IMG/VR virus record: IMGVR_UViG_3300043470_001428
Span: 1 to 45,086 of that record
DNA from: a virus
Reading direction: 5' to 3' (one strand)
Length of the DNA stretch: 45,086 nt
Shown here: positions 7,997-40,282 of the stretch, one piece after another
How the letters are laid out: every line of letters begins with the position of its first letter
How positions within the stretch are numbered: the first letter of the stretch is position 1
Notes under the pieces: generated by a model
Database searches by the model: none
Seen by the model: the letters and a program-made list of their open reading frames with translations, nothing else
Told to the model about the DNA's origin: nothing
Program-made: the position numbers and the translations under genes

Positions 7997-8076
7997 ATAT
8001 TGTGTAAAAAACTACTCATTAGGGTGAACATCTTTTAATTATAGGATTCCTACCTATCCTAAATCTTGTAGTTTAG

Positions 8077-8149
8077 TGGGAAGACCAGGAGTTGAACCTG
8101 AATGGCTGGTTCTTCAAACCAGTGCATTGACCACCTATGCTATCTTCCC
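8077..8149 (-). tRNA. tRNA-Phe (GAA)
   Basis: Full cloverleaf on the minus strand: acceptor GGGAAGA pairs with TCTTCCC, D stem GCAT/ATGC with a GG-containing loop, anticodon stem CTGGT/ACCAG with loop TTGAAGA (anticodon GAA), T arm TCAGG-TTCAACT-CCTGG. The CCA end is not encoded. It is the last member of the array. Confidence 0.93.
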
Positions 8150-8153
8150 TTAT

Positions 8154-8244
8154 AAAATAATAAATACCGAATTAATCAAAATTCTTATGTTGTATTGCTT
8201 CCAACCACTCATACAAAACCATTGGGTAGGTTATTTATTATTTT
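8154..8244 (-). other. Structured spacer between tRNAs, closed by a 15-bp helix
   Basis: The gap between tRNA-Phe and tRNA-Glu is closed by an inverted repeat of 15 bp with one bulge (8154-8168 with 8229-8244). A nested 6-bp stem TTGTAT/ATACAA lies inside (8190-8195 with 8211-8216). There is no T-loop consensus and no anticodon arm, so it is not a normal tRNA. It could be a processing hairpin for the flanking tRNAs or a separate small RNA. The outer arms are AT-only apart from a GG/CC pair, so part of the match may be compositional. Confidence 0.3.
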
Positions 8245-8247
8245 TTG

Positions 8248-8319
8248 TACTGCATAGGGGATTTGAACCCCTGACCTCACATAGAAAGTGTGATGTGATA
8301 ACCCCTTCACTAATGCAGC
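8248..8319 (-). tRNA. tRNA-Glu (TTC)
   Basis: Cloverleaf of 72 bases: acceptor GCTGCAT pairs with ATGCAGT (one G-U pair), D stem GTGA/TCAC, anticodon stem TCACA/TGTGA, loop CTTTCTA with anticodon TTC, T arm AGGGG-TTCAAAT-CCCCT. Position 37 is T rather than the usual purine. CCA is not encoded. Confidence 0.88.
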
Positions 8320-8325
8320 AAATTG

Positions 8326-8396
8326 TAAATCTAACTGGATTTGAACCAATACAAACAGCTCCAAAAACTGTTGTGCTACCATTACACCATAGATTT
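8326..8396 (-). tRNA. tRNA-Gln (TTG)
   Basis: Cloverleaf of 71 bases: acceptor AAATCTA with TAGATTT, D stem GTGT/GCAC, anticodon stem ACAGT/GCTGT, loop TTTTGGA with anticodon TTG, T arm ATTGG-TTCAAAT-CCAGT. CCA is not encoded. It sits 6 bases upstream of tRNA-Glu in the transcript. Confidence 0.92.
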
Positions 8397-8400
8397 AATT

Positions 8401-8468
8401 TGATATACTATTTTTCCCATTAATTGTAGCCTATTTAGTTTATCCACAGTTGCTTACTCCGTATATCA
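8401..8468 (-). other. tRNA-sized element closed by 8-bp terminal helix, not a tRNA
   Basis: A 68-base stretch inside the tRNA array is closed by a perfect 8-bp helix, TGATATAC (8401-8408) with GTATATCA (8461-8468). The size and terminal stem imitate a tRNA, but there is no GTTCRA T-loop and no clear cloverleaf. Its 5' part on the minus strand, GGAGTAAGCA, also occurs at the 5' end of the tmRNA-like RNA near 40232. It may be a decayed tRNA or a distinct small RNA. Confidence 0.35.
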
Positions 8469-8486
8469 GGGAACACTATCTGTTTG

Positions 8487-8558
8487 CTGATGATGTAGGA
8501 CTTGAACCTACAACCTTCTGATTAACAGTCAGATGCTCTACCATTGAGCTAATCACCA
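8487..8558 (-). tRNA. tRNA-Asn (GTT)
   Basis: Cloverleaf of 72 bases: acceptor TGGTGAT with ATCATCA (one G-U), D stem GCTC/GAGC with loop AATGGTA, anticodon stem TCTGA/TCAGA, loop CTGTTAA with anticodon GTT, T arm GTAGG-TTCAAGT-CCTAC, discriminator G. CCA is not encoded. Confidence 0.94.
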
Positions 8559-11817: not shown

Positions 11818-12102
11818 TTATTCTACACCAATAATTTCATCATAGAATACAATAGTATGTAAAACAGTTTTCACATCTTTTGTTTCTTCTATAATTTTTG
11901 CTCCATGAAAATCCACATGTTTTGTAAAAATAGGTACATCTCCTATATTTATAACACCTTCTGGACATTCTTCTCCTAACTGTAAAACTTTAAAAGTTAT
12001 ATCAAATGTTTCCTCTGGAGCAGATTTACCAGTTAATATAATTTTAGTTTGTTTTTTAGTCATTGTTTGTTCTACAAGAACTCTTCTACCAATTACCTTC
12101 AT
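11818..12102 (-). CDS. GroES-like co-chaperonin
   Basis: 94 residues, the usual co-chaperonin length. It begins MKVIGRRVLVEQ, like the GroES start, then has IILTGKSAPEE, VLQLGEECPEG, NIGDVPIFTKH and a terminal HTIVFYDEIIGVE that matches the GroES closing strand. The mobile loop region (residues about 16-32) is present but diverged. It may substitute for host GroES on GroEL during capsid folding, as T4 gp31 does. Assignment is by pattern only, without alignment. The preceding gene in the transcript is a GIY-YIG endonuclease. Confidence 0.65.
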   Translation of the reverse strand: MKVIGRRVLVEQTMTKKQTKIILTGKSAPEETFDITFKVLQLGEECPEGVINIGDVPIFTKHVDFHGAKIIEETKDVKTVLHTIVFYDEIIGVE

Positions 12103-12131
12103 AATTTTTGTTTTTAAATTAAGTTTAGTGT

Positions 12132-12806
12132 TTATATTCTTTTAAAAATTTTACCTTTAAATGTTTTAGCTCTTGTTTTAGTAGATAATATATTACAAAG
12201 TAATGAAGAAGTAGTGTTTAACTCTTCAGCACATTCTTTAATTGTTTCCCATTGTTTAATTATTTCTCCTCTATCATTTATTTCTGCAATACTTACACCT
12301 TTTCTTTTTCTATAAGAAAATGGAATAAAATCATCTCCTAAATATCTCCAAACAAAATTATATGCTTTTCTTCTTTCTAATCTGCATACTTTAGTAATTT
12401 TAGAGCTATTAGTAAGACTTAATGTAGTCATAATATCTTGTAAACAATTAAAAACCTGAATAAAATTACCATCTAAATCATATTGAATAATAGGTTTTCT
12501 TTTATTACTTATCAAACCATTTGTTCTTCCTGCTATTTGACAACAATTATATTCAGGTTTTAAGGTATCAATATAATATTGTTCTCTTTCTAATAAATTT
12601 ATTTCTTTACATAATTCTATTATTTCAAATTTTAAACTATTTTTTCCATATTTATTATATACTCTTTGTAGTATAGGGGAATGATGTTTATTATTCTTCA
12701 ACATTGAAAGATGTAAATACTTTCTTGCTTTTATATCTACAGAAGAGCCAATATAAATTTTATTATTTATAGAGTTCGTAATTTTATAAATACCTATAAC
12801 TTTCAT
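12132..12806 (-). CDS. GIY-YIG homing endonuclease with NUMOD-type repeats
   Basis: 224 residues. IGIYKITNSINNKIYIGSS at the N-terminus gives the GIY and YIG strands, followed by an Arg (KARKYLH) and a catalytic Glu region (LEREQYYIDTLKPEYN). The C-terminal half has short DNA-recognition modules of NUMOD1 type (IIQYDLDGNFIQVF and VSIAEINDRGEIIKQW, each followed by a helical segment). It is a free-standing selfish endonuclease lying immediately downstream of the C-terminal ThyX piece. Its own promoter box is just upstream (12827-12834). Confidence 0.9.
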   Translation of the reverse strand: MKVIGIYKITNSINNKIYIGSSVDIKARKYLHLSMLKNNKHHSPILQRVYNKYGKNSLKFEIIELCKEINLLEREQYYIDTLKPEYNCCQIAGRTNGLISNKRKPIIQYDLDGNFIQVFNCLQDIMTTLSLTNSSKITKVCRLERRKAYNFVWRYLGDDFIPFSYRKRKGVSIAEINDRGEIIKQWETIKECAEELNTTSSLLCNILSTKTRAKTFKGKIFKRI

Positions 12807-12826
12807 AAAAACCTTTAAAATTTTTA

Positions 12827-12834
12827 CAAATATA
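12827..12834 (-). promoter_or_regulatory. -7 box TATATTTG before the GIY-YIG gene
   Basis: TATATTTG on the minus strand lies 21 bases before the ATG at 12806. A TTTG occurs 23 bases upstream of it, longer than the ideal 19. Probable independent promoter for the selfish gene. Confidence 0.4.
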
Positions 12835-13431
12835 CTACAAATTTATATTATTATCTACAAAATAACGATAATTTATAAATCCTTTTAGATTATTACACCA
12901 ACCCAAATCTTTTTGTACAATTGCTTTTTCTCTGTTTAATCCTTTTACAGTCTTTACAGCAGTAAAGTATTCTTCATCACTCATAGCTCTTGCACAATGT
13001 TCAAAAGGACTTGAATGAGGTGGGTCTTGAGTTAATAATCTATCATGCAAACCAATTAAGTTTTCATAATTGATTTCTTTTTCTTCTCCTACTACTGTAT
13101 AAGAAGTTCTTGCTGCCATAGCTACTGAAATTTTAATATCATTCAATTGAAAATCTTTTACTAATTTATCAATATCATCAGCATTTGCATTAGAATAACT
13201 TTCAAAACTATCTACAAATGGAACATGCCATTCACCAGCTTTTAATTGTCTTGGAGTAGATTCATTTACTGCATCATAAATACATTCAGCAAGTGCCATC
13301 ATGTGAATTTCAGCTTGACCTTTATTTAGAGATAGCCACTTTTCTTCTGACCAATTTGAAGTATCTATACCTTTAGTAGAAAGAAATTCAGTAACTTCTT
13401 TTCTACTTGAAAATCTTTTTATATTACCCAT
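12835..13431 (-). CDS. thyX: ThyX C-terminal fragment (split gene)
   Basis: 198 residues matching only the second half of the long phage-type flavin-dependent thymidylate synthase: KGQAEIHMMALAE, STPRQLKAGEWHVPF, ISVAMAARTSY, and LLTQDPPHSSPFEHCA. The N-terminal half, with the dUMP/flavin motif, is a separate gene at 14454-14942. The first 35 residues before KGQAEIH may be remnant or junction sequence. The start is ATG 13431, overlapping the previous stop as TAATG. The two pieces could reassemble into an active enzyme; residues from both halves would be needed. The gene ends with TAG. Confidence 0.85.
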   Translation of the reverse strand: MGNIKRFSSRKEVTEFLSTKGIDTSNWSEEKWLSLNKGQAEIHMMALAECIYDAVNESTPRQLKAGEWHVPFVDSFESYSNANADDIDKLVKDFQLNDIKISVAMAARTSYTVVGEEKEINYENLIGLHDRLLTQDPPHSSPFEHCARAMSDEEYFTAVKTVKGLNREKAIVQKDLGWCNNLKGFINYRYFVDNNINL

Positions 13432-13745
13432 TACTTTAATTGTTTTCCTTCTACATTCCTTTTCAATCTATCTTGTGTTCTTTTATTAAGCCACATTAAA
13501 GATTCTTCAAGTTTTGTGATTACAATTGCATTTTCTCTACAAGGAAATTTAGATTGTAAGAAATTCATTCTGTCAATCAATACTTCTAAAACTTCTTCAT
13601 TTGTAGTACCATCAGCAATAGTAACTAATTCAGTAGAACCTTCTTCTTTTGGTTCTTTGTGAATAAATTGTAAAATTTGACCTTGTTGGTCTTTGTTTTC
13701 AAAATTAGACAACTCATATTGGTGTCCTACAACATTATTTTTCAT
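13431..13745 (-). CDS. Acb2/Tad1-type anti-defence nucleotide sponge
   Basis: 104 residues. The C-terminal half (about 46-104) carries GTTNEEVLEVLIDRM, KFPCRENAIVITKLEESLMW and NKRTQDRLKRNVEG. This is the helical hairpin pattern I recognise from the Acb2/Tad1 family, phage proteins that bind cyclic nucleotides or gcADPR and so silence CBASS or Thoeris defence. The N-terminal 40 residues are variable and polar. It sits between the two thyX pieces, after a GIY-YIG gene whose stop overlaps this start by 11 bases. Which signal it binds cannot be read from sequence. Confidence 0.75.
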   Translation of the reverse strand: MKNNVVGHQYELSNFENKDQQGQILQFIHKEPKEEGSTELVTIADGTTNEEVLEVLIDRMNFLQSKFPCRENAIVITKLEESLMWLNKRTQDRLKRNVEGKQLK

Positions 13746-14403
13746 ACACTATTAATTTATATTTATTATACAATTTACATCTTGGGTCTTGTTTTTTCAT
13801 TCTAATAAGAGTTGGATAAGCTATTGGACAAATTTTAGATAACTCTTTTATGGATTTTGCACTCCAAATATTACCTGTTTCTAAATCTTCTAAAGAAGCT
13901 GAGATAGACCTATATGAATTGTCTTTAGCAAGATTTCTTCTATATTCAATTTTTTCAGGTTTGTTAGCAATTTCTTTTTGAATATTAGATAACTTTTGTT
14001 TTAATTCAGGAGTATAATTAATATTAGAATAACCTCTTTTTCTTTTGGCTTTTTCAGAGATTTTTTGTATAGCTTCTTGAGTATGTTTATACCCTAAATT
14101 AGATTCTCCACCTAAAGTTAAGTTAGCTAAACAACCTGTTTTATCACATTTTCTACCATATTTAGCAATTAAATCTATTTCCATCTGTTCTACTTCTTTT
14201 CTATCATCAGCTTCAAAAAGTATTTCAAATTTCCAATTAGTTTTATCAATTATTTTAAGCCAAATATTATTATCTATGTGTTTAGAATAAGCTCTACTAT
14301 AAGTACTACATTTTAAATCTTGTTTAGATTTTGTACCAATACCTATATAAAATATCTCATTCTTATCTTCTCTTATATGTTGATAAACATAATATTTTTT
14401 CAT
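13735..14403 (-). CDS. GIY-YIG endonuclease inserted in the thyX locus
   Basis: 222 residues. YYVYQHIREDKNEIFYIGIG gives the two GIY-YIG strands in the YVY/YIG variant, then Lys/Arg-rich helices, a Glu region (EQMEIDLIAKYGRK), CLANLTLGGE, and a NUMOD3-like stretch (GYKHTQEAIQKISEKAK). The C-terminus is a putative DNA-recognition region. It is preceded by a textbook Bacteroidota promoter (14420-14450). It separates the thyX halves, so its insertion, with the neighbouring gene, probably split thyX. Confidence 0.85.
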   Translation of the reverse strand: MKKYYVYQHIREDKNEIFYIGIGTKSKQDLKCSTYSRAYSKHIDNNIWLKIIDKTNWKFEILFEADDRKEVEQMEIDLIAKYGRKCDKTGCLANLTLGGESNLGYKHTQEAIQKISEKAKRKRGYSNINYTPELKQKLSNIQKEIANKPEKIEYRRNLAKDNSYRSISASLEDLETGNIWSAKSIKELSKICPIAYPTLIRMKKQDPRCKLYNKYKLIVYEK

Positions 14404-14419
14404 CTTTTATAAATTTTTA

Positions 14420-14450
14420 CAAAGATAAAGAAATTATCCCAAAGTACAAA
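14420..14450 (-). promoter_or_regulatory. Complete Bacteroidota promoter inside the split thyX
   Basis: TTTG (14450-14447), then exactly 19 bases, then TATCTTTG (14427-14420) on the minus strand, 16 bases before the ATG at 14403. It matches the -33/-7 consensus of Bacteroidota. It would drive the GIY-YIG gene, the Acb2/Tad1-like gene and the ThyX C-terminal piece separately from the N-terminal piece. Confidence 0.75.
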
Positions 14451-14453
14451 ATT

Positions 14454-14942
14454 TTAATCTTTTAAACTTTCAAGATTATCTAAATCAATCTCATAGACTG
14501 GGTTTCTTAATCTAAAGAAATTATCCCAACCTTCTCTACTACCAGTAATTAACATAGTAGTCCACATAAATGGCTCTATTAATCTATTACAAAGTTGTTT
14601 AGTTACTTTATTAGCATGTAAATCTTTTGCTCCTTCTATAGCTCTATCTCTTGAGATTAACCAACTTTCTCTTAAATCAAGTATTTCATGTTCTCCTTCC
14701 CAATATTCAGTTCCTTGCATTCCTTTATGTTCTTTTTGCCAAGCAATAGGAATAAAAGGATTTTCTTGTACCATTTCTAACAGTTTATCAAATGGAATTG
14801 CTCTACTTGATGAGGTATTTTTACTCAACATTCTGTGAGTATTGACCTCTGCTAAAATATGTCTTGGAAATGTTGCCAATACTGTAATTAATTCATCTCC
14901 TTGTGGACTTTTTGAATGCCCAACTATTTCTGCTCTAATCAT
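14454..14942 (-). CDS. thyX: ThyX N-terminal fragment (split gene)
   Basis: 162 residues matching the first half of flavin-dependent thymidylate synthase: FPRHILAEVNTHRMLSKN, then TSSSRAIPF as the ThyX signature, KVTKQLCNRLIEPFMW, and WDNFFRLRNPVYE near the end. The remainder of the enzyme is encoded at 12835-13431. The frame ends in TAA after LESLKD, with no continuation into the intervening DNA. ATG 14942 overlaps the previous stop as ATGA. ThyX makes dTMP from dUMP using FAD and methylene-tetrahydrofolate. Confidence 0.88.
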   Translation of the reverse strand: MIRAEIVGHSKSPQGDELITVLATFPRHILAEVNTHRMLSKNTSSSRAIPFDKLLEMVQENPFIPIAWQKEHKGMQGTEYWEGEHEILDLRESWLISRDRAIEGAKDLHANKVTKQLCNRLIEPFMWTTMLITGSREGWDNFFRLRNPVYEIDLDNLESLKD

Positions 14943-21614: not shown

Positions 21615-22691
21615 TTAGAAGGGTAAATCTTCAACTTGTGGCTCTTCTGTATCATCAATTAAATTGATTACAGTTCTTCTTCTTGTAGTTGGTTCATCTA
21701 AAGGTTCATTTCCTAAAACACTATTAACAAATGCTTCTGCTGGAGTTACTGGATATTCATTATAAGAATCAGTAAAACTATTCAGAAGAGTAGAAGGATT
21801 AATTAAATTCTCATTTATCAATCTTCTTGATTCTTCTATATTAATAGAATTAAGATAATCAGCACTAATAGGATTAATAGGGTCAATAGCACCTCTTCTT
21901 CTCATTTGAGCTACAATACCTTCCATTTTAGGAATTTCTTCTTCCCATATAACCTCATCAGTTTTAATAGGAACAAATTTTCTTTGTCTATCCTCAATTT
22001 TACTACCTATTCCAGGATTAAAAGTTTTGAATTGTTCATTACTTTTAAACATAATATTACCTACATTATCTCTTAAATGATTTTGTAATTCATCTACAGT
22101 ATTGAATTTCAATTCAAACTCATTAGAATAAGTTAATTTTTCAATTTTAGAAGTTGTGGTAAATACTACTGGAATTTCAGCTTTGTAAGCATCTAAAATA
22201 TATTCTTTTTCTAATTTTTTATAGAAATTTGAATATACAGGATTAGTTAGTAATTCAGTAGAAATTAATAAAGTTAAATGTTTAGCATTTTCTTTAGGAA
22301 TTGAAACATTTGAATACCTTGATTGATAATGTAAACTTAATCTATCAGGTTTAGTAGTCAATACCATAAGAAGTTCATCTTTTTCATTAACTATATAACC
22401 TTTTGCTACATGAATTATTATCTTTTCTTCTCCTACACCTAAATTAAAAGGATATAAACCAACAGATTCATTTATCATTCCAAGAAAATCTCTTAAATTA
22501 AATTTTTTTGGTGAATTTTTATTTAATGCTGGTCTATTATAAATTATAAAGTCTCCTTCATAAATTCTTTGATGTCGAGAACCTTCTCTATGACAATTAA
22601 TTATAGGTATAAAATAAGAAGTAGCTGATGAACCAATTTTAAACTCATTACCAGAGAACTCACTACTATAAGTTTCAGTTAATTGTAACAT
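21615..22691 (-). CDS. Unknown protein of the ubiquitin-like cassette, with SIM-like and SSB-tail-like C-terminus
   Basis: 358 residues, not recognised as a family. The first 230 residues are alpha/beta (EKIIIHVAKGYIV, HLTLLISTELL). The rest is polar and probably disordered. The C-terminus has RRRTVINLIDDTEE (341-347 hydrophobic then acidic, like a SUMO-interaction motif) and ends VEDLPF, like the acidic DLPF tip of Bacteroidota SSB. It is directly downstream of the E1-like gene (2-base gap), so it is likely a substrate, adaptor or regulator of the ubiquitin-like system. The motif readings are inference. Confidence 0.6.
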   Translation of the reverse strand: MLQLTETYSSEFSGNEFKIGSSATSYFIPIINCHREGSRHQRIYEGDFIIYNRPALNKNSPKKFNLRDFLGMINESVGLYPFNLGVGEEKIIIHVAKGYIVNEKDELLMVLTTKPDRLSLHYQSRYSNVSIPKENAKHLTLLISTELLTNPVYSNFYKKLEKEYILDAYKAEIPVVFTTTSKIEKLTYSNEFELKFNTVDELQNHLRDNVGNIMFKSNEQFKTFNPGIGSKIEDRQRKFVPIKTDEVIWEEEIPKMEGIVAQMRRRGAIDPINPISADYLNSINIEESRRLINENLINPSTLLNSFTDSYNEYPVTPAEAFVNSVLGNEPLDEPTTRRRTVINLIDDTEEPQVEDLPF

Positions 22692-22693
22692 AT

Positions 22694-23371
22694 TTAAAAC
22701 TTATTAGTGGTTAAAGCTAAAGGAATAAAGAACTCGTGATAAAAGGGAACATCTCTCACAACTTCTCTTTCATATATGTTTGTCATGTGATTAGTGAAAA
22801 AAGCAGTCATTAAAGTAGCTATCATAGCTGCTGCATGTGAAGTTTGTTTCATTGTGCAAGGTGCATCTTCAACTTCTTCATCAGTAAATAATGTTTTTTC
22901 ATAATCTGCAATTCTGTCTGGAGTTACACAGAAAATTTGCAATTGTTCCATTTCTAATCTACCATCAATTAAAATAGGTGTTACTGCACAATTTTCAATA
23001 CTTCTTTTCCAGTTTTCAAACATATTTTTTCTTGCTAACATATTGTCAAAACCAGAAAACATAAAATAGTGAGTTGGAGAGTTTTCATCTATTCTATTGT
23101 TAAATCCTGACATTGAATCATTAGCAAATTCCTTAATAATTTCAGATAAGGCAGAAACTTTATGTTTCCCTACATCTGAAAGTCTAAATAATTGACCTCC
23201 TGTATTATGTTCTTCAATAATATCAAAGTCATATACAATTGGTTTAAATCCTGCTCTTGCAAGAAATAATGTGAGCCAAGAGGAAATTCCTCCTGCTCCA
23301 CCTACCATTACAGTTTCATTTTCTTTTGGAAACCAAGGGGCATCTTTAAATCTATTATACTGTTGTGTCAT
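22694..23371 (-). CDS. ThiF/E1-like adenylating enzyme
   Basis: 225 residues from ATG 23371 (a longer frame starts only at TTG). VGGAGGISSWL (23-33) is the Rossmann nucleotide loop, VYDFD (47-50) the acidic pair, EHNTGGQLF (54-62) the Asn/Gln motif, DVGKHKV (66-72) the catalytic Lys region, and SGFDNMLARK (106-115) the distal Asp/Arg. Cys172 in DAPCTMKQTSHAA is a candidate thioester cysteine. This is the complete adenylation set of ThiF/MoeB/E1 proteins that activate a ubiquitin-like C-terminus. It overlaps the JAB gene by 17 bases. It is smaller than eukaryotic E1 and lacks a separate Ub-fold domain. Confidence 0.82.
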   Translation of the reverse strand: MTQQYNRFKDAPWFPKENETVMVGGAGGISSWLTLFLARAGFKPIVYDFDIIEEHNTGGQLFRLSDVGKHKVSALSEIIKEFANDSMSGFNNRIDENSPTHYFMFSGFDNMLARKNMFENWKRSIENCAVTPILIDGRLEMEQLQIFCVTPDRIADYEKTLFTDEEVEDAPCTMKQTSHAAAMIATLMTAFFTNHMTNIYEREVVRDVPFYHEFFIPLALTTNKF

Positions 23372-24611
23372 TTTTCTCAAATTCTACAATCATAGCTTTA
23401 ATAGCTTCAATTGTTACATTAATAAATGGAAATTGCATAACTTCGTCTTCTAATAAATCAATTACAGTATATGTATCTTCAATAAATTCTTCATCAGTAG
23501 AATCAGGAAAATGTTTGTCATACAAAAATGTGTAATTTTCAATAACAGAGGAAGCAATTTGATAAGCATGTACTTCTAAATCTTCTAATAAAACTAAAGC
23601 ATCTTCAAGATTTTCATCAGGTTCAATAGGAGTAGTAAATTTCATTAACTCTACCAAGAATGTATCAATTGGACTTAATTCATCAATTTCTGATAAATCA
23701 TCAAAAGTTCTAAAATCAATCATAGAAGCAATATCTTTTATTTTTTTACCTCTTTTTGATAATTTACTTTCATCTATTTTATAATGCTTGATTTTGTTAG
23801 CTAATTTAGCATTTTCTAAATTATTTACTACTGGAATAGCAGTAGGAGTATTAGGAACAAATTTACCATTAATCCATTTACCATTACTAAATGCTGTATT
23901 AACAGCAGGATATGTGTGAGGAGTAAATTGTTTAATAGGTTTAGGTTTCATAATTTCCTTAACTCTATTATCAAATCCCTCTTCCACAATTACTTGTTCA
24001 AATGGAGAAATAATTTCACAATCATAGACAAACATTTTATCTTTTTTCAAAGTAATATTTGGTCTATCAATTATGTATTTAGTTCCATCTTCATCATTTG
24101 CTAAATATGGAATTTCTTTAATTTCTTGTTCTAAACTTGCTACAAAAGCAACTTTAGCCATAAAATCCATATAATTATTAACAATTAATGATAAATAAAA
24201 GTTGTGTGATGGAGAATTATCATTTAATTCAGCCATATCAGTACCAGAGAAAAACACAGCCATAGTATTATGACTATGAATATGACCTACATACCAATCC
24301 ATTCTTTTTTCATCTTCCATTAGATAATCAAGGTATCTATCATCAAGCTCATATTCTGTATAAGCTGATGTTCCTTTATCTAATGGTAAAATATCTTCCA
24401 GTTTTATTTTGAATGTTAGTGGGTCTTTAATACTACCTTCAATAGAGTAGAATAAAGCACCAGACCATTCATCTTTGTTTATATTTTTACAAAGGTACTT
24501 GATTTTGTTCAGAATCTCTTCTGACATAATTACTGGAAGTTTCAATGTAGTTAATTCCGCTACCTCTAACACAGGCTTTGTAAATTTCGGATTCGAGTTG
24601 TTTACAGACAT
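23355..24611 (-). CDS. JAB/JAMM metallo-isopeptidase
   Basis: 418 residues. The N-terminal domain has Glu48 (DEWSGALFY) and, near 107-120, GHIHSHNTMAVFFSGTDM, the HxH-x(n)-SxxD zinc motif of JAMM deubiquitinases. The second half is a phage-specific helical region with an acidic C-terminus. It would process the ubiquitin-like precursor or remove it from targets. It overlaps the E2-like gene by 125 bases if ATG 24611 is used. An internal ATG at 24527 would cut this to 41 bases but would remove a strand (TTLKLPVI) expected in the JAB fold. Confidence 0.85.
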   Translation of the reverse strand: MSVNNSNPKFTKPVLEVAELTTLKLPVIMSEEILNKIKYLCKNINKDEWSGALFYSIEGSIKDPLTFKIKLEDILPLDKGTSAYTEYELDDRYLDYLMEDEKRMDWYVGHIHSHNTMAVFFSGTDMAELNDNSPSHNFYLSLIVNNYMDFMAKVAFVASLEQEIKEIPYLANDEDGTKYIIDRPNITLKKDKMFVYDCEIISPFEQVIVEEGFDNRVKEIMKPKPIKQFTPHTYPAVNTAFSNGKWINGKFVPNTPTAIPVVNNLENAKLANKIKHYKIDESKLSKRGKKIKDIASMIDFRTFDDLSEIDELSPIDTFLVELMKFTTPIEPDENLEDALVLLEDLEVHAYQIASSVIENYTFLYDKHFPDSTDEEFIEDTYTVIDLLEDEVMQFPFINVTIEAIKAMIVEFEKNDTTV

Positions 24612-25743
24612 AATCTAAAAAATTAGGATAAATTCCATATTCGGAAATATCAATTGTTGTTATTTGTTCAATAGGTAATATATTGAAAGATAATTTCTTA
24701 CCTTGAATATATAGGAAAGGCATTTCACCAGAACCTTGTTCTTTTATTCTATTTGTGATTAATTGTGGACCAGAAATCATTTGTCCTATTTCAGGATATG
24801 TGTAAAATTCACCATCACTTCCTTTTTTGCAAACAACTTTTACAATATAATCTTTAAGATTTTCATTAGATAAAAATGCTTCTCTTAAATATTCTGTAAA
24901 AACAGAATCTTTTTTAATTTTATATATATTATCCATATATACAAAATTAAAAGGTAGTTTTTGTGAAACAGATAATTCATAATTTTGAAATTCTCTATAA
25001 ATACCTATAATATCAGATGTTTGAGTAGTAACTCTTATAGCTGCATATTCTACTGTTATTTCTCCTATTCTAAAATGAGGACCTCCTTCTAAACTTTCCC
25101 AAGCAACAAGAGAATCAATAGTATAAAGCATTAATTCAAATTTATCTGAATCAAATTCAGCAGATAATTCAATATCTAATTCTGATAAATCTTCTGAACC
25201 AATACAAAAGTTATTTGTAGTTAAACATTCACTAAAACCAGTAATTTTTGATATACCAGGTAGATGACTATGCATATATCCTCTATTCCATTCATCCTGT
25301 ACTAATGTTAATCTTGTACCTTGTACTCTTTTAGTATAAATACAATTATTATCAACACTAAAAGTAACAGGTAATACAACTACTAAATCTAATAGATTTC
25401 TTGATTGTTCACTACTATTTGTAATTTCTAATTTAGGATAATGAAAAATAAAACTTATTTCATAGTAATTTTTATCACTTATTCTTCTATTATTTAGATG
25501 AATATCCCACTTATCTACAAACTTTCTTTCAAAAACAGTAATTAATTCAAAAAGTTGTTCTGTAAAAATAGCATAGTTTCTTTTATGCAGAATTTCAGGT
25601 CTATCATTTGAACTAATATAGCATATTTTACCTTTATCAATCATCTTTTTTAACCAATTTCTATTTCTGGTTAATCCTGATATTCTTGCTGAACTAATAT
25701 AGTTTTGAAACTTATTAGATGATTTATTAATTTTTAAATCCAT
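24487..25743 (-). CDS. Putative E2-like protein of the ubiquitin-like cassette
   Basis: 418 residues. The middle has alternating strands (EISFIFHYPKLEITN, LDLVVVLPVTFSV, RVQGTRLTLVQDEW), then GYMHSHLPG (His158, His160) and NNFCIGSEDLSELD (Cys180), then LVAWESLEGGPHFRI. Strands followed by a His-Pro-type flap and a Cys-Ile-Gly match the E2/RWD layout, in which the Cys accepts the ubiquitin-like protein. A PRTRC-system B-type protein is the main alternative. The remaining 200 residues are unrecognised. It lies between the ubiquitin-like and JAB genes, which supports a conjugation role. The E2 call is inference. Confidence 0.55.
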   Translation of the reverse strand: MDLKINKSSNKFQNYISSARISGLTRNRNWLKKMIDKGKICYISSNDRPEILHKRNYAIFTEQLFELITVFERKFVDKWDIHLNNRRISDKNYYEISFIFHYPKLEITNSSEQSRNLLDLVVVLPVTFSVDNNCIYTKRVQGTRLTLVQDEWNRGYMHSHLPGISKITGFSECLTTNNFCIGSEDLSELDIELSAEFDSDKFELMLYTIDSLVAWESLEGGPHFRIGEITVEYAAIRVTTQTSDIIGIYREFQNYELSVSQKLPFNFVYMDNIYKIKKDSVFTEYLREAFLSNENLKDYIVKVVCKKGSDGEFYTYPEIGQMISGPQLITNRIKEQGSGEMPFLYIQGKKLSFNILPIEQITTIDISEYGIYPNFLDYVCKQLESEIYKACVRGSGINYIETSSNYVRRDSEQNQVPL

Positions 25744-25758
25744 TTTTTGAAGTAATTA

Positions 25759-25790
25759 AAAAAGCTCTTTACTTATGTAAAGAGCTTTTT
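25759..25790 (-). terminator. Intrinsic terminator between the ubiquitin-like gene and the enzyme genes
   Basis: Perfect 14-bp stem (25759-25772 with 25777-25790) with a TTAT loop, followed on the minus strand by a T run. It lies between the ubiquitin-like gene and the E2-like gene and probably keeps the modifier more abundant than its enzymes. Confidence 0.92.
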
Positions 25791-25808
25791 GTTATAGAAA
25801 TGAAAAGA

Positions 25809-26681
25809 TTATCCAAACATTTTAGCTTCAGCAGCTAATCTGTCATCTTCTTCTTTTTCAAGTCTTTTTTGTTCTTCTTTTTCAGCTTTTTCAGTAGCAA
25901 TTTTTTCTTGCTCTTCTTTTTCAGCTTTTTCTCTTGCAATTCTTCTACCTTCATCTTCAGGAGATTCATTATCTTTTGAAGCAGCAACAGAAGCTACTAC
26001 ATCTGCAACAGTTGTTACAGTAGCAGTATCATCATTTTCAACTTCTTCTTTTAAACCAGGTAAATAATCATCAAGAATTTCATTTGCTCTATCAGAAACA
26101 TCTTCATTTTCTGTATTATCACAAATTTCTTTTAATAAAGTTTCAACTTGTTCAACTCTATCAGCATTTGTAATAGTTCTTACAGGAGTAGAAGGAGTTT
26201 CTGTTACTGTAGTAGTTTCAGTAGCTACAGGAGCAACTTCTTCTTTAACATCTGCTTTTGCAGCACCAGAAGGAGCAACAAAAGTGTTTAATAACTCTCT
26301 CAAGATTTCAGTACCTTTTGTAGTATAGTTTTTTTCTTGATTATAGTGAGCATCTGCTGCTTCTTTAAAAGAAGTAAAATCATCTTTGATAACAGCTTTA
26401 ATATCTTTATAAGATAAACCATCTCCTCTACCACCAGATTTAACTTGTTTAGGTCTCATAAAAACAGTAAAATCACCTGCTGGTAATACTGCTGCATCAT
26501 TAACAAGGTCTGTTTTGTTAATGTTTTCTGTAGCATGTAATTTGTCAAGGTCATAACCTTCACTTTTAATCAGAGATTTTAATTCACCCCAAGTTGAAAC
26601 TTCTGTTTCCAATTTTGCTTTTTTTGCTCCTTTTGTAGCATAAAGTGTAATAACTCTTGCTGTACTTGTTTGTGTACTCAT
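25809..26681 (-). CDS. Ubiquitin-like (beta-grasp) modifier precursor
   Basis: 290 residues. Residues 8-82 fit a beta-grasp: ARVITLYATKGAKKAKLETE (two strands), WGELKSLIKSEGYD (helix), then LPAGDFTVFMRPKQVKSGG (closing strand and Lys-Ser-Gly83-Gly84). The GG is internal, followed by a helical region (90-140), a Thr/Val/Ala-rich linker and a long Glu/Lys/Arg coiled coil to the end. The JAB enzyme could cleave after Gly84 to expose a conjugatable tail, or the domain could act uncleaved. Its own terminator and its position before E2-, JAB- and E1-like genes support the modifier role. The beta-grasp call rests on pattern, not alignment. Confidence 0.68.
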   Translation of the reverse strand: MSTQTSTARVITLYATKGAKKAKLETEVSTWGELKSLIKSEGYDLDKLHATENINKTDLVNDAAVLPAGDFTVFMRPKQVKSGGRGDGLSYKDIKAVIKDDFTSFKEAADAHYNQEKNYTTKGTEILRELLNTFVAPSGAAKADVKEEVAPVATETTTVTETPSTPVRTITNADRVEQVETLLKEICDNTENEDVSDRANEILDDYLPGLKEEVENDDTATVTTVADVVASVAASKDNESPEDEGRRIAREKAEKEEQEKIATEKAEKEEQKRLEKEEDDRLAAEAKMFG

Positions 26682-39553: not shown

Positions 39554-39663
39554 AAAGAATGTAATTACAAAGAGATTTGAACTCTTATTCCTATTTTTCA
39601 AGGTCTTAACCAATGATTATGAGAACTTCCCTCATAATTCTAAAATGATATAATTACATCTTT
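39554..39663 (-). ncRNA. tRNA-like RNA with T arm but disrupted core
   Basis: A 13-bp terminal helix with one bulge (39554-39567 with 39651-39663) encloses a perfect T arm, AAGAG-TTCAAAT-CTCTT (39570-39586), and a D-loop-like ATTGGTTAA. The anticodon region is about five bases too short, and an 8-bp hairpin ATTATGAG/CTCATAAT (39616-39638) is present instead. It could be a decayed tRNA or a tRNA mimic. Confidence 0.45.
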
Positions 39664-39687
39664 AAACTGCTGATATACAGCTTGTTG

Positions 39688-40232
39688 TGGAGTGGCTGGG
39701 AATCGAACCCAGGTCTTACTTATTTCGATATTATAATTTTATACAGCTTTAGTAGCAGAACTTTACTTAAACCCTCATCTGGACTACCATTCAGGGTTAC
39801 ATCTCTTTCAATTCTTCATGTTAGAACAGGGTCAAACTGATTTCTCAATATGACGAATCCACCAGAGCATTTATTTATAAGGGTAACACACAAAACCCTA
39901 CTGATGTTTAGGCAGCAACTGCAACATCTTCTCTAATTAAAGAGAAAACCATATTCATATTTGCTTCAACTTGTGCGTTATCTTCTAAAGACACTACACT
40001 ATTATTTGTGTTTCCAATTACTTGATTTCACCTTAGTTTTAAACAGTTATCTCTCTGTGCTGAATTATAATACTTAACACAAGCAATCAATACCAGACCA
40101 CCCCTTTTTTTAAAAAATGCTTGTCTTTCCAAGCTGTCAAGTTATCTTAACTATTGATTTTCCCCTATTTTGGAAATTTATTTTTCCGCCATAAACCATT
40201 AGGGTTTGGTGTGTGTCCTATCTGCTTACTCC
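39688..40232 (-). ncRNA. tmRNA-like RNA with tag reading frame (candidate)
   Basis: The 3' end is a tRNA-like half: GAC, then T arm CTGGG-TTCGATT-CCCAG (39696-39712), then CCACTCC and A. Its ACTCCACA pairs perfectly with TGTGGAGT at the 5' end (40235-40228), and no local 5' partner exists. Inside, a 39-codon open frame (40027-39908) ends REDVAVAA then TAA, like the AA-rich tags of tmRNA. A 15-bp helix with one mismatch (40200-40214 with 39886-39900) encloses the tag. Against it: the UGGAUUCGAC motif is not at the 5' end, only five acceptor pairs form in register, and the tag is long. The locus is bounded by terminators at 40283-40328 and 39074-39101. Confidence 0.45.
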
Positions 40233-40282
40233 ACACATTCACATACACAGATGAATATATTATGAAAATTATTAATGTAATA

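Follow-up and report, generated by a model that had tools for sequence, protein, structure and literature searches.

The 45,086-nucleotide stretch of viral DNA analysed here (the window; IMG/VR record IMGVR_UViG_3300043470_001428) carries on its minus strand a gene that, on the basis of sequence comparison, is a tmRNA gene (ssrA) with a tag of unusual make-up. The predicted 35-residue tag combines a conserved inner core with a C-terminus resembling the ssrA degradation signal. In the sequences compared, this core is common to at least 138 related virus sequences and occurs in no bacterial tmRNA examined. The two-part phage tag appears to be undescribed; phage tmRNAs as such are already known. 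The features of the gene are listed in table 1.

Table 1. Coordinates of the tmRNA gene and its parts in the window.
Feature	Position	Strand	Basis
tmRNA gene (ssrA), 420 nt	39685..40104	-	RF00023 match and covariation in 33 relatives
5' acceptor strand GGGGTGG, holding G3 of G3-U70	40098..40104	-	RF00023; G-U in 33/33
D-loop-like segment (TCTGGTATTGAT)	40086..40097	-	RF00023 alignment; GG and TTG invariant in the 33-sequence alignment (A1)
P2 helix, 5' strand, ending CAGC	40059..40085	-	covarying pairs, A1 columns 21-48
Phage-specific RNA element CAGAGAGATAACTG..CTAAGGTGAA, at the pseudoknot 1 site	40027..40057	-	conserved
Resume codon GGA, after TAATT	40013..40015	-	alignment to RF00023 and 33 relatives
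Tag frame GNTNNSVVSLEDNAQVEANMNMVFSLIREDVAVAA, 35 codons and TAA	39908..40015	-	pN/pS of the core; resume-codon alignment
Tag core QVEANMNMVFSLI (Q-x-x-A-N-M-x-x-V-x-x-L/I-L/I)	39935..39973	-	conservation
Hairpin within the tag frame (TTTTCTCT-TTAATT-AGAGAAGA), aligned to RF00023 P5	39927..39948	-	
VAVAA C-terminus, ssrA-degron-like	39911..39925	-	80/85 distinct tags end AA
P2 helix, 3' strand, starting GCTG	39713..39747	-	covariation
T arm CTGGG-TTCGATT-CCCAG	39696..39712	-	five of five pairs with compensatory changes
3' acceptor CCACTCC (39689-39695), discriminator A, then CAA	39685..39695	-	

The gene matches the Rfam tmRNA model RF00023 over its full length (model positions 1-374) with 65.9 bits (E = 1.3e-23; curated cut-off 47 bits). 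The original prediction, a phage tmRNA whose tag is unusually long, is thus borne out by a match above the cut-off, by covariation of the helices and by conservation of the tag frame as protein. The two halves stand in the standard order in the RF00023 alignment, and not in the permuted order of two-piece tmRNAs, which had been put forward as a form to look for. ARAGORN, also suggested as a check, does not call the gene in the window phage, and the named isolate Flavobacterium phages have no annotated feature at this position.

Several tmRNA hallmarks had been thought to be missing, and a related but new kind of RNA had been considered on that account. The RNA does contain the G3-U70 pair, a TTCGA T-loop, the CTGG/TTGA segment, P2 and a TAAxxG resume context; an encoded CCA is absent, the 3' end reading CAA. 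An encoded CCA is not a defining feature of tmRNAs, since CCA can be added after transcription. With an acceptor carrying G3-U70, a T arm, a long P2 and a tag frame selected as protein, the RNA fits RF00023 and needs no new class; the novelty is the tag.

A consensus structure, restricted to nested pairs, was predicted from an alignment (A1) of 33 distinct phage tmRNAs. Double, compensatory changes occur in 27 of its 48 predicted pairs, in the acceptor, P2 and T helices alike. For example, the P2 column pair 40-612 is UA in 19 sequences and AU in 14, and the T-stem pair 640-654 occurs as GC, UA, AU or CG. The acceptor GGGGTGG/CCACTCC has 7 bp, and its third pair is the G-U that serves as the alanine identity pair of tmRNA (G3-U70), kept in all 33 phage tmRNAs. 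In this nested-structure analysis, the conserved phage-specific element, which showed no clear fold, stands in the place of the pseudoknot 1 region.

The tRNA-like 3' half, recognized from the start, consists of the T arm and the 3' acceptor strand of table 1, but its proposed 5' partner had to be replaced. An 8-bp pairing of TGTGGAGT at 40228-40235 with 39686-39693 is present in the window and had been suggested, but the closest relative lacks this 8-mer pairing, and the segment lies outside the conserved DNA, conservation with Flavobacterium phages starting at about 40115. The RF00023 alignment places the 5' acceptor strand at GGGGTGG instead, and the RNA is therefore 420 nt long, not 545. 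The 15-bp helix with one mismatch, noted as closing the tag region, is P2 and covaries strongly. Lack of covariation in the terminal and 15-bp helices would have spoken against the RNA; with the terminal helix corrected, both show compensatory changes.

TAA and two further bases precede the resume codon, both in the Rfam alignment and in every relative. The 39-codon frame reported earlier does run from stop to stop (40027 down to 39908), ends in DVAVAA and a stop, and lacks an ATG near its start; the tag itself comprises 35 of these codons, from GGA onwards. Its peptide contains the segment EDNAQVEANMNM... and the C-terminal segment ...EDVAVAA.

Relatives were collected with two patterns. The first, a degenerate DNA pattern for NAQ[IV]EANM, was run over IMG/VR and returned 74 loci, mostly long-tag tmRNAs. 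The second was the RNA element upstream of the tag, which is independent of the tag sequence. Together, 138 tmRNA copies were collected from Bacteroidota phages and IMG/VR contigs, with 85 distinct tags of 24-45 amino acids (median 35). This collection was filtered for 'NM', and the unbiased figure for the core comes from the intact tmRNAs added by the RNA-element search alone: 55 of these 57 contain Q-x-x-A-N-M. The two exceptions (L200 and L234) have the RNA element and share one tag variant without this core. The divergent tag of L200 reads GNIDNDAQEVVDINYTFSTPMMVVHKGERKSVSPSQDLSWGTRQVAIAA; L234 is cut by the contig end. Conversely, of 70 loci picked out by the tag motif alone, 61 contain the exact RNA element, and the rest differ from it by a base or two.

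The tags share one layout: the core, a spacer that varies widely in length and sequence, and an ssrA-like end. Residues Q, A, N and M are invariant across 60 aligned tags. Eighty of the 85 distinct tags end in AA and the other five end differently; by sequence, the C-terminus fits the small or hydrophobic residues ending in AA by which Clp proteases recognize ssrA tags.

The pattern of substitution in the core was compared between reading frames and codon positions. Calculated pairwise and without phylogenetic correction, pN/pS comes to 0.39 for the tag frame and to 0.94 and 1.48 for the same DNA in the two shifted frames. Across the 70 distinct cores compared, all four GCN codons occur at the invariant alanine, both asparagine codons at the invariant asparagine, and three of the four GTN codons at the near-invariant valine. 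Entropy over the core amounts to 7.8, 4.1 and 12.5 bits at the three codon positions. The conserved object is therefore the peptide and, by these measures, the core is under protein-level selection. From the 60 aligned tags, AlphaFold predicts a single helix spanning residues 10-34 (pLDDT 86-87 over residues 11-30), which is weak evidence for a peptide so short. An amphipathic helix is not established, as the hydrophobic moment of the core was not significantly high against shuffled sequences. The idea that the tag was captured from a phage protein was considered and discarded: no ORF of at least 60 amino acids in the fetched loci carries the core, and a comparison of the core with the PDB gave no match.

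The window phage, a 45-kb fragment, is close to the Flavobacterium psychrophilum phages of the genus Fipvunavirus. Its DNA polymerase is 97% identical to that of FpV4, and the DNA around the tmRNA is 86% identical to Flavobacterium phages. Among isolates, the carriers are Fipvunavirus (29 records), the Cellulophaga phages phi38:1, phi40:1 and Calle (Pervagoviridae), and Cellulophaga phage phi14:2 (Crassvirales), the last with an RF00023 score of 46.0 bits, one bit below the cut-off. Across isolate phages, the RNA element occurs above chance in Flavobacterium and Cellulophaga phages only. The carriers in IMG/VR are diverse: 14 of 41 records have no recognizable copy of the window DNA polymerase, and in most of the other records tested it is 27-40% identical to that of the window.

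The tmRNAs of Bacteroidota hosts share with the phage RNA the G3-U70 acceptor, T arm, P2, resume context and a tag ending in AA. They differ in lacking the QxxANM core, in having a pseudoknot 1 region where the phage RNA has its conserved element, and in tag length. Of 70 Bacteroidota tmRNA tags read by ARAGORN, 67 have 9-10 residues and end in AA (for example, GENNYALAA, ADDYSYAMAA and DNNYSYRLAA), against 24-45 residues in the phages; the tag of the window phage is three to four times longer than those of its likely hosts. The three longer readings look like wrong frames, and one of them contains the usual DNFGYRMAA. None of the 70 tags carries the phage core, and the RNA element was found in none of 395 sampled Bacteroidota genomes. 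A search of 84,980 species genomes with the tag motif gave 12 matches, as far as could be judged ordinary or chance protein frames; in one with a tag-like frame (L092), both the acceptor arrangement and the RNA element are missing.

The phage copies look mosaic. Near-identical 5' halves are joined to very different tags in 35 pairs, and the reverse is seen in 14 pairs, among loci L183-L241 and L011-L080. The 5' halves and tag modules thus look as if shuffled between phages, which fits recombination and perhaps a diversifying interaction. In phi14:2 (L008) and the Callevirus phages (L009 and L010), ARAGORN places the start of the tag at a codon inside it, giving GSSVQKLAMVA and AQIEANMEAVNAILNLEVAVGV; tag lengths published or called automatically for these phages are therefore probably underestimates.

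These data are consistent with a complete, one-piece tmRNA that would depend on its host. Host alanyl-tRNA synthetase would charge the RNA through G3-U70, and host SmpB, together with host EF-Tu, would serve it on ribosomes that have stalled on broken messages in infected cells. Translation would resume at GGA, adding the 35-residue tag, and ribosomes would be recycled for the phage. The 23 carrier phage records examined, complete isolates among them, yielded no SmpB gene, and host SmpB therefore presumably serves.

The explanation that we favour, with about even confidence, is that this host-dependent Flavobacterium-phage tmRNA adds a degradation tag with an extra docking element. The outer VAVAA module is expected to be read by ClpXP-type proteases. 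The inner core, QxxANMxxVxxLL, predicted to be helical, would dock a host or phage factor that would steer or speed the degradation of tagged chains; it is conservation alone that suggests to us this docking role. The Escherichia coli ssrA tag, with its SspB adaptor site and ClpX-binding LAA, follows the same two-part logic of inner adaptor site and outer protease site. The phage core is, however, unrelated to it in sequence, and SspB (PF04386), the classical tag adaptor, was not found in 61 sampled Bacteroidota genomes, which rules out a known-type SspB site as the role of the core. More broadly, and more tentatively, widespread Bacteroidota phages may reprogram trans-translation: the QxxANM module would bind a non-standard receptor, and stalled proteins would be rerouted to a fate chosen by the phage.

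Other explanations differ mainly in the part given to the core. The tag could be a marker or effector and not, or not only, a degron, its core inhibiting or recruiting a host protease, chaperone or defence factor, or directing tagged chains to a phage structure. Conservation of the core independently of the C-terminal module points this way, as does the recombination of modules and 5' halves among phages, which a diversifying interaction would lead one to expect. Nearly all tags nevertheless keep a degradation-type end like that of host tags, and we regard such a role as rather unlikely. It is unlikely, too, that the long tag of a functional tmRNA is a mere spacer before an ordinary ssrA degron, with the core preserved for some generic need, for example unstructured protease engagement. 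The C-terminus is indeed ssrA-like, the spacer varies widely in length and sequence, and long tags exist elsewhere (22 residues in Wildcat-type mycobacteriophages, as read by ARAGORN), but a generic spacer would not fix four residues, Q, A, N and M, in the 60 aligned tags of divergent phages.

Two further readings concern the RNA. Conservation might act on folding of the mRNA-like domain or on binding of SmpB or the ribosome, the peptide being irrelevant: in the window, part of a hairpin falls within the second half of the core, and the neighbouring RNA element is nearly invariant. Free third codon positions beside fixed amino acids, the low pN/pS confined to the tag frame and the position of Q..ANM outside the hairpin make this very improbable. 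That the locus is a non-functional remnant or a chance assembly, as the missing ARAGORN call and the lack of an encoded CCA could imply, is already contradicted by the full Rfam match and the compensatory changes across many independent phages, and we give it practically no credence. A degradation tag with a docking element thus remains our preferred reading.

Phage tmRNAs are known from mycobacteriophages and Bacillus phage G (passages of PMC4131195). A survey found them in 402 of 18,146 phage genomes (2.3%), with marine phages such as Melnitz among the carriers (passages of PMC9004378), and for Cellulophaga phage Calle (PMC8776804) and Maribacter phage Panino (PMC11590407) the passages covered give the presence of the gene only. 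In the passages covered from these four sources, a conserved long tag is not discussed. In the paper on the 2025 tmRNA database, the commonest tag has 10 amino acids and very short tags receive comment; long phage tags are not mentioned in the passages covered (PMC11915505). The database drew on RefSeq viruses and may therefore list some of these RNAs. No description of a QxxANM tag was found in open-access full text, supplements aside. Other phage-encoded tmRNAs resemble the present one in being carried by the phage and presumably using host SmpB. As read by ARAGORN, the tags of three of them are different and have no such core (phage G, 13 amino acids; Wildcat-type, 22; Reyvirus, 12). The long ssrA tag of Mesoplasma florum, about 27 amino acids, is likewise atypical and is read by a dedicated protease, mf-Lon; it differs from the phage tag in sequence and host group.

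These observations bear on why phages carry tmRNAs. It is exactly where the fate of tagged proteins is decided that phage and host genes differ, and the differing part is conserved across divergent phages. Among them are isolates whose hosts can be cultured (phages of Flavobacterium psychrophilum and Cellulophaga), and the question is therefore directly testable, the core peptide offering a handle for a receptor search. Common annotation misses such genes: ARAGORN fails on the window and the Flavobacterium phages and shortens the tags of Cellulophaga phages.

Other features of the window were noted in passing. Directly downstream of the tmRNA lies a tRNA-like element (39558-39659, minus strand) with a 12-bp closing stem, a T arm AAGAG-TTCAAAT-CTCTT and a 9-bp hairpin. 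Its Rfam tRNA score is 17.4, below the cut-off of 29, and its fold z-score is -1.9; it may be a tRNA that is degenerate or unusual. Four tRNA genes (Phe, Glu, Gln and Asn) are clustered at 8076-8558 on the minus strand. On the same strand, at 21615-26681, a ThiF/E1-like protein (Pfam ThiF, 4e-12; weak PRTRC_ThiF) is encoded beside a weak Prok-JAB match and unassigned proteins, and the region may hold a PRTRC-like ubiquitin-like conjugation set in a phage. In the region 11818-14942 (minus strand), GIY-YIG/NUMOD ORFs (12132-12806 and 13735-14403) and short unassigned ORFs come after a weak Thy1/ThyX match (14454-14942); mobile introns may here have split a thymidylate synthase gene.
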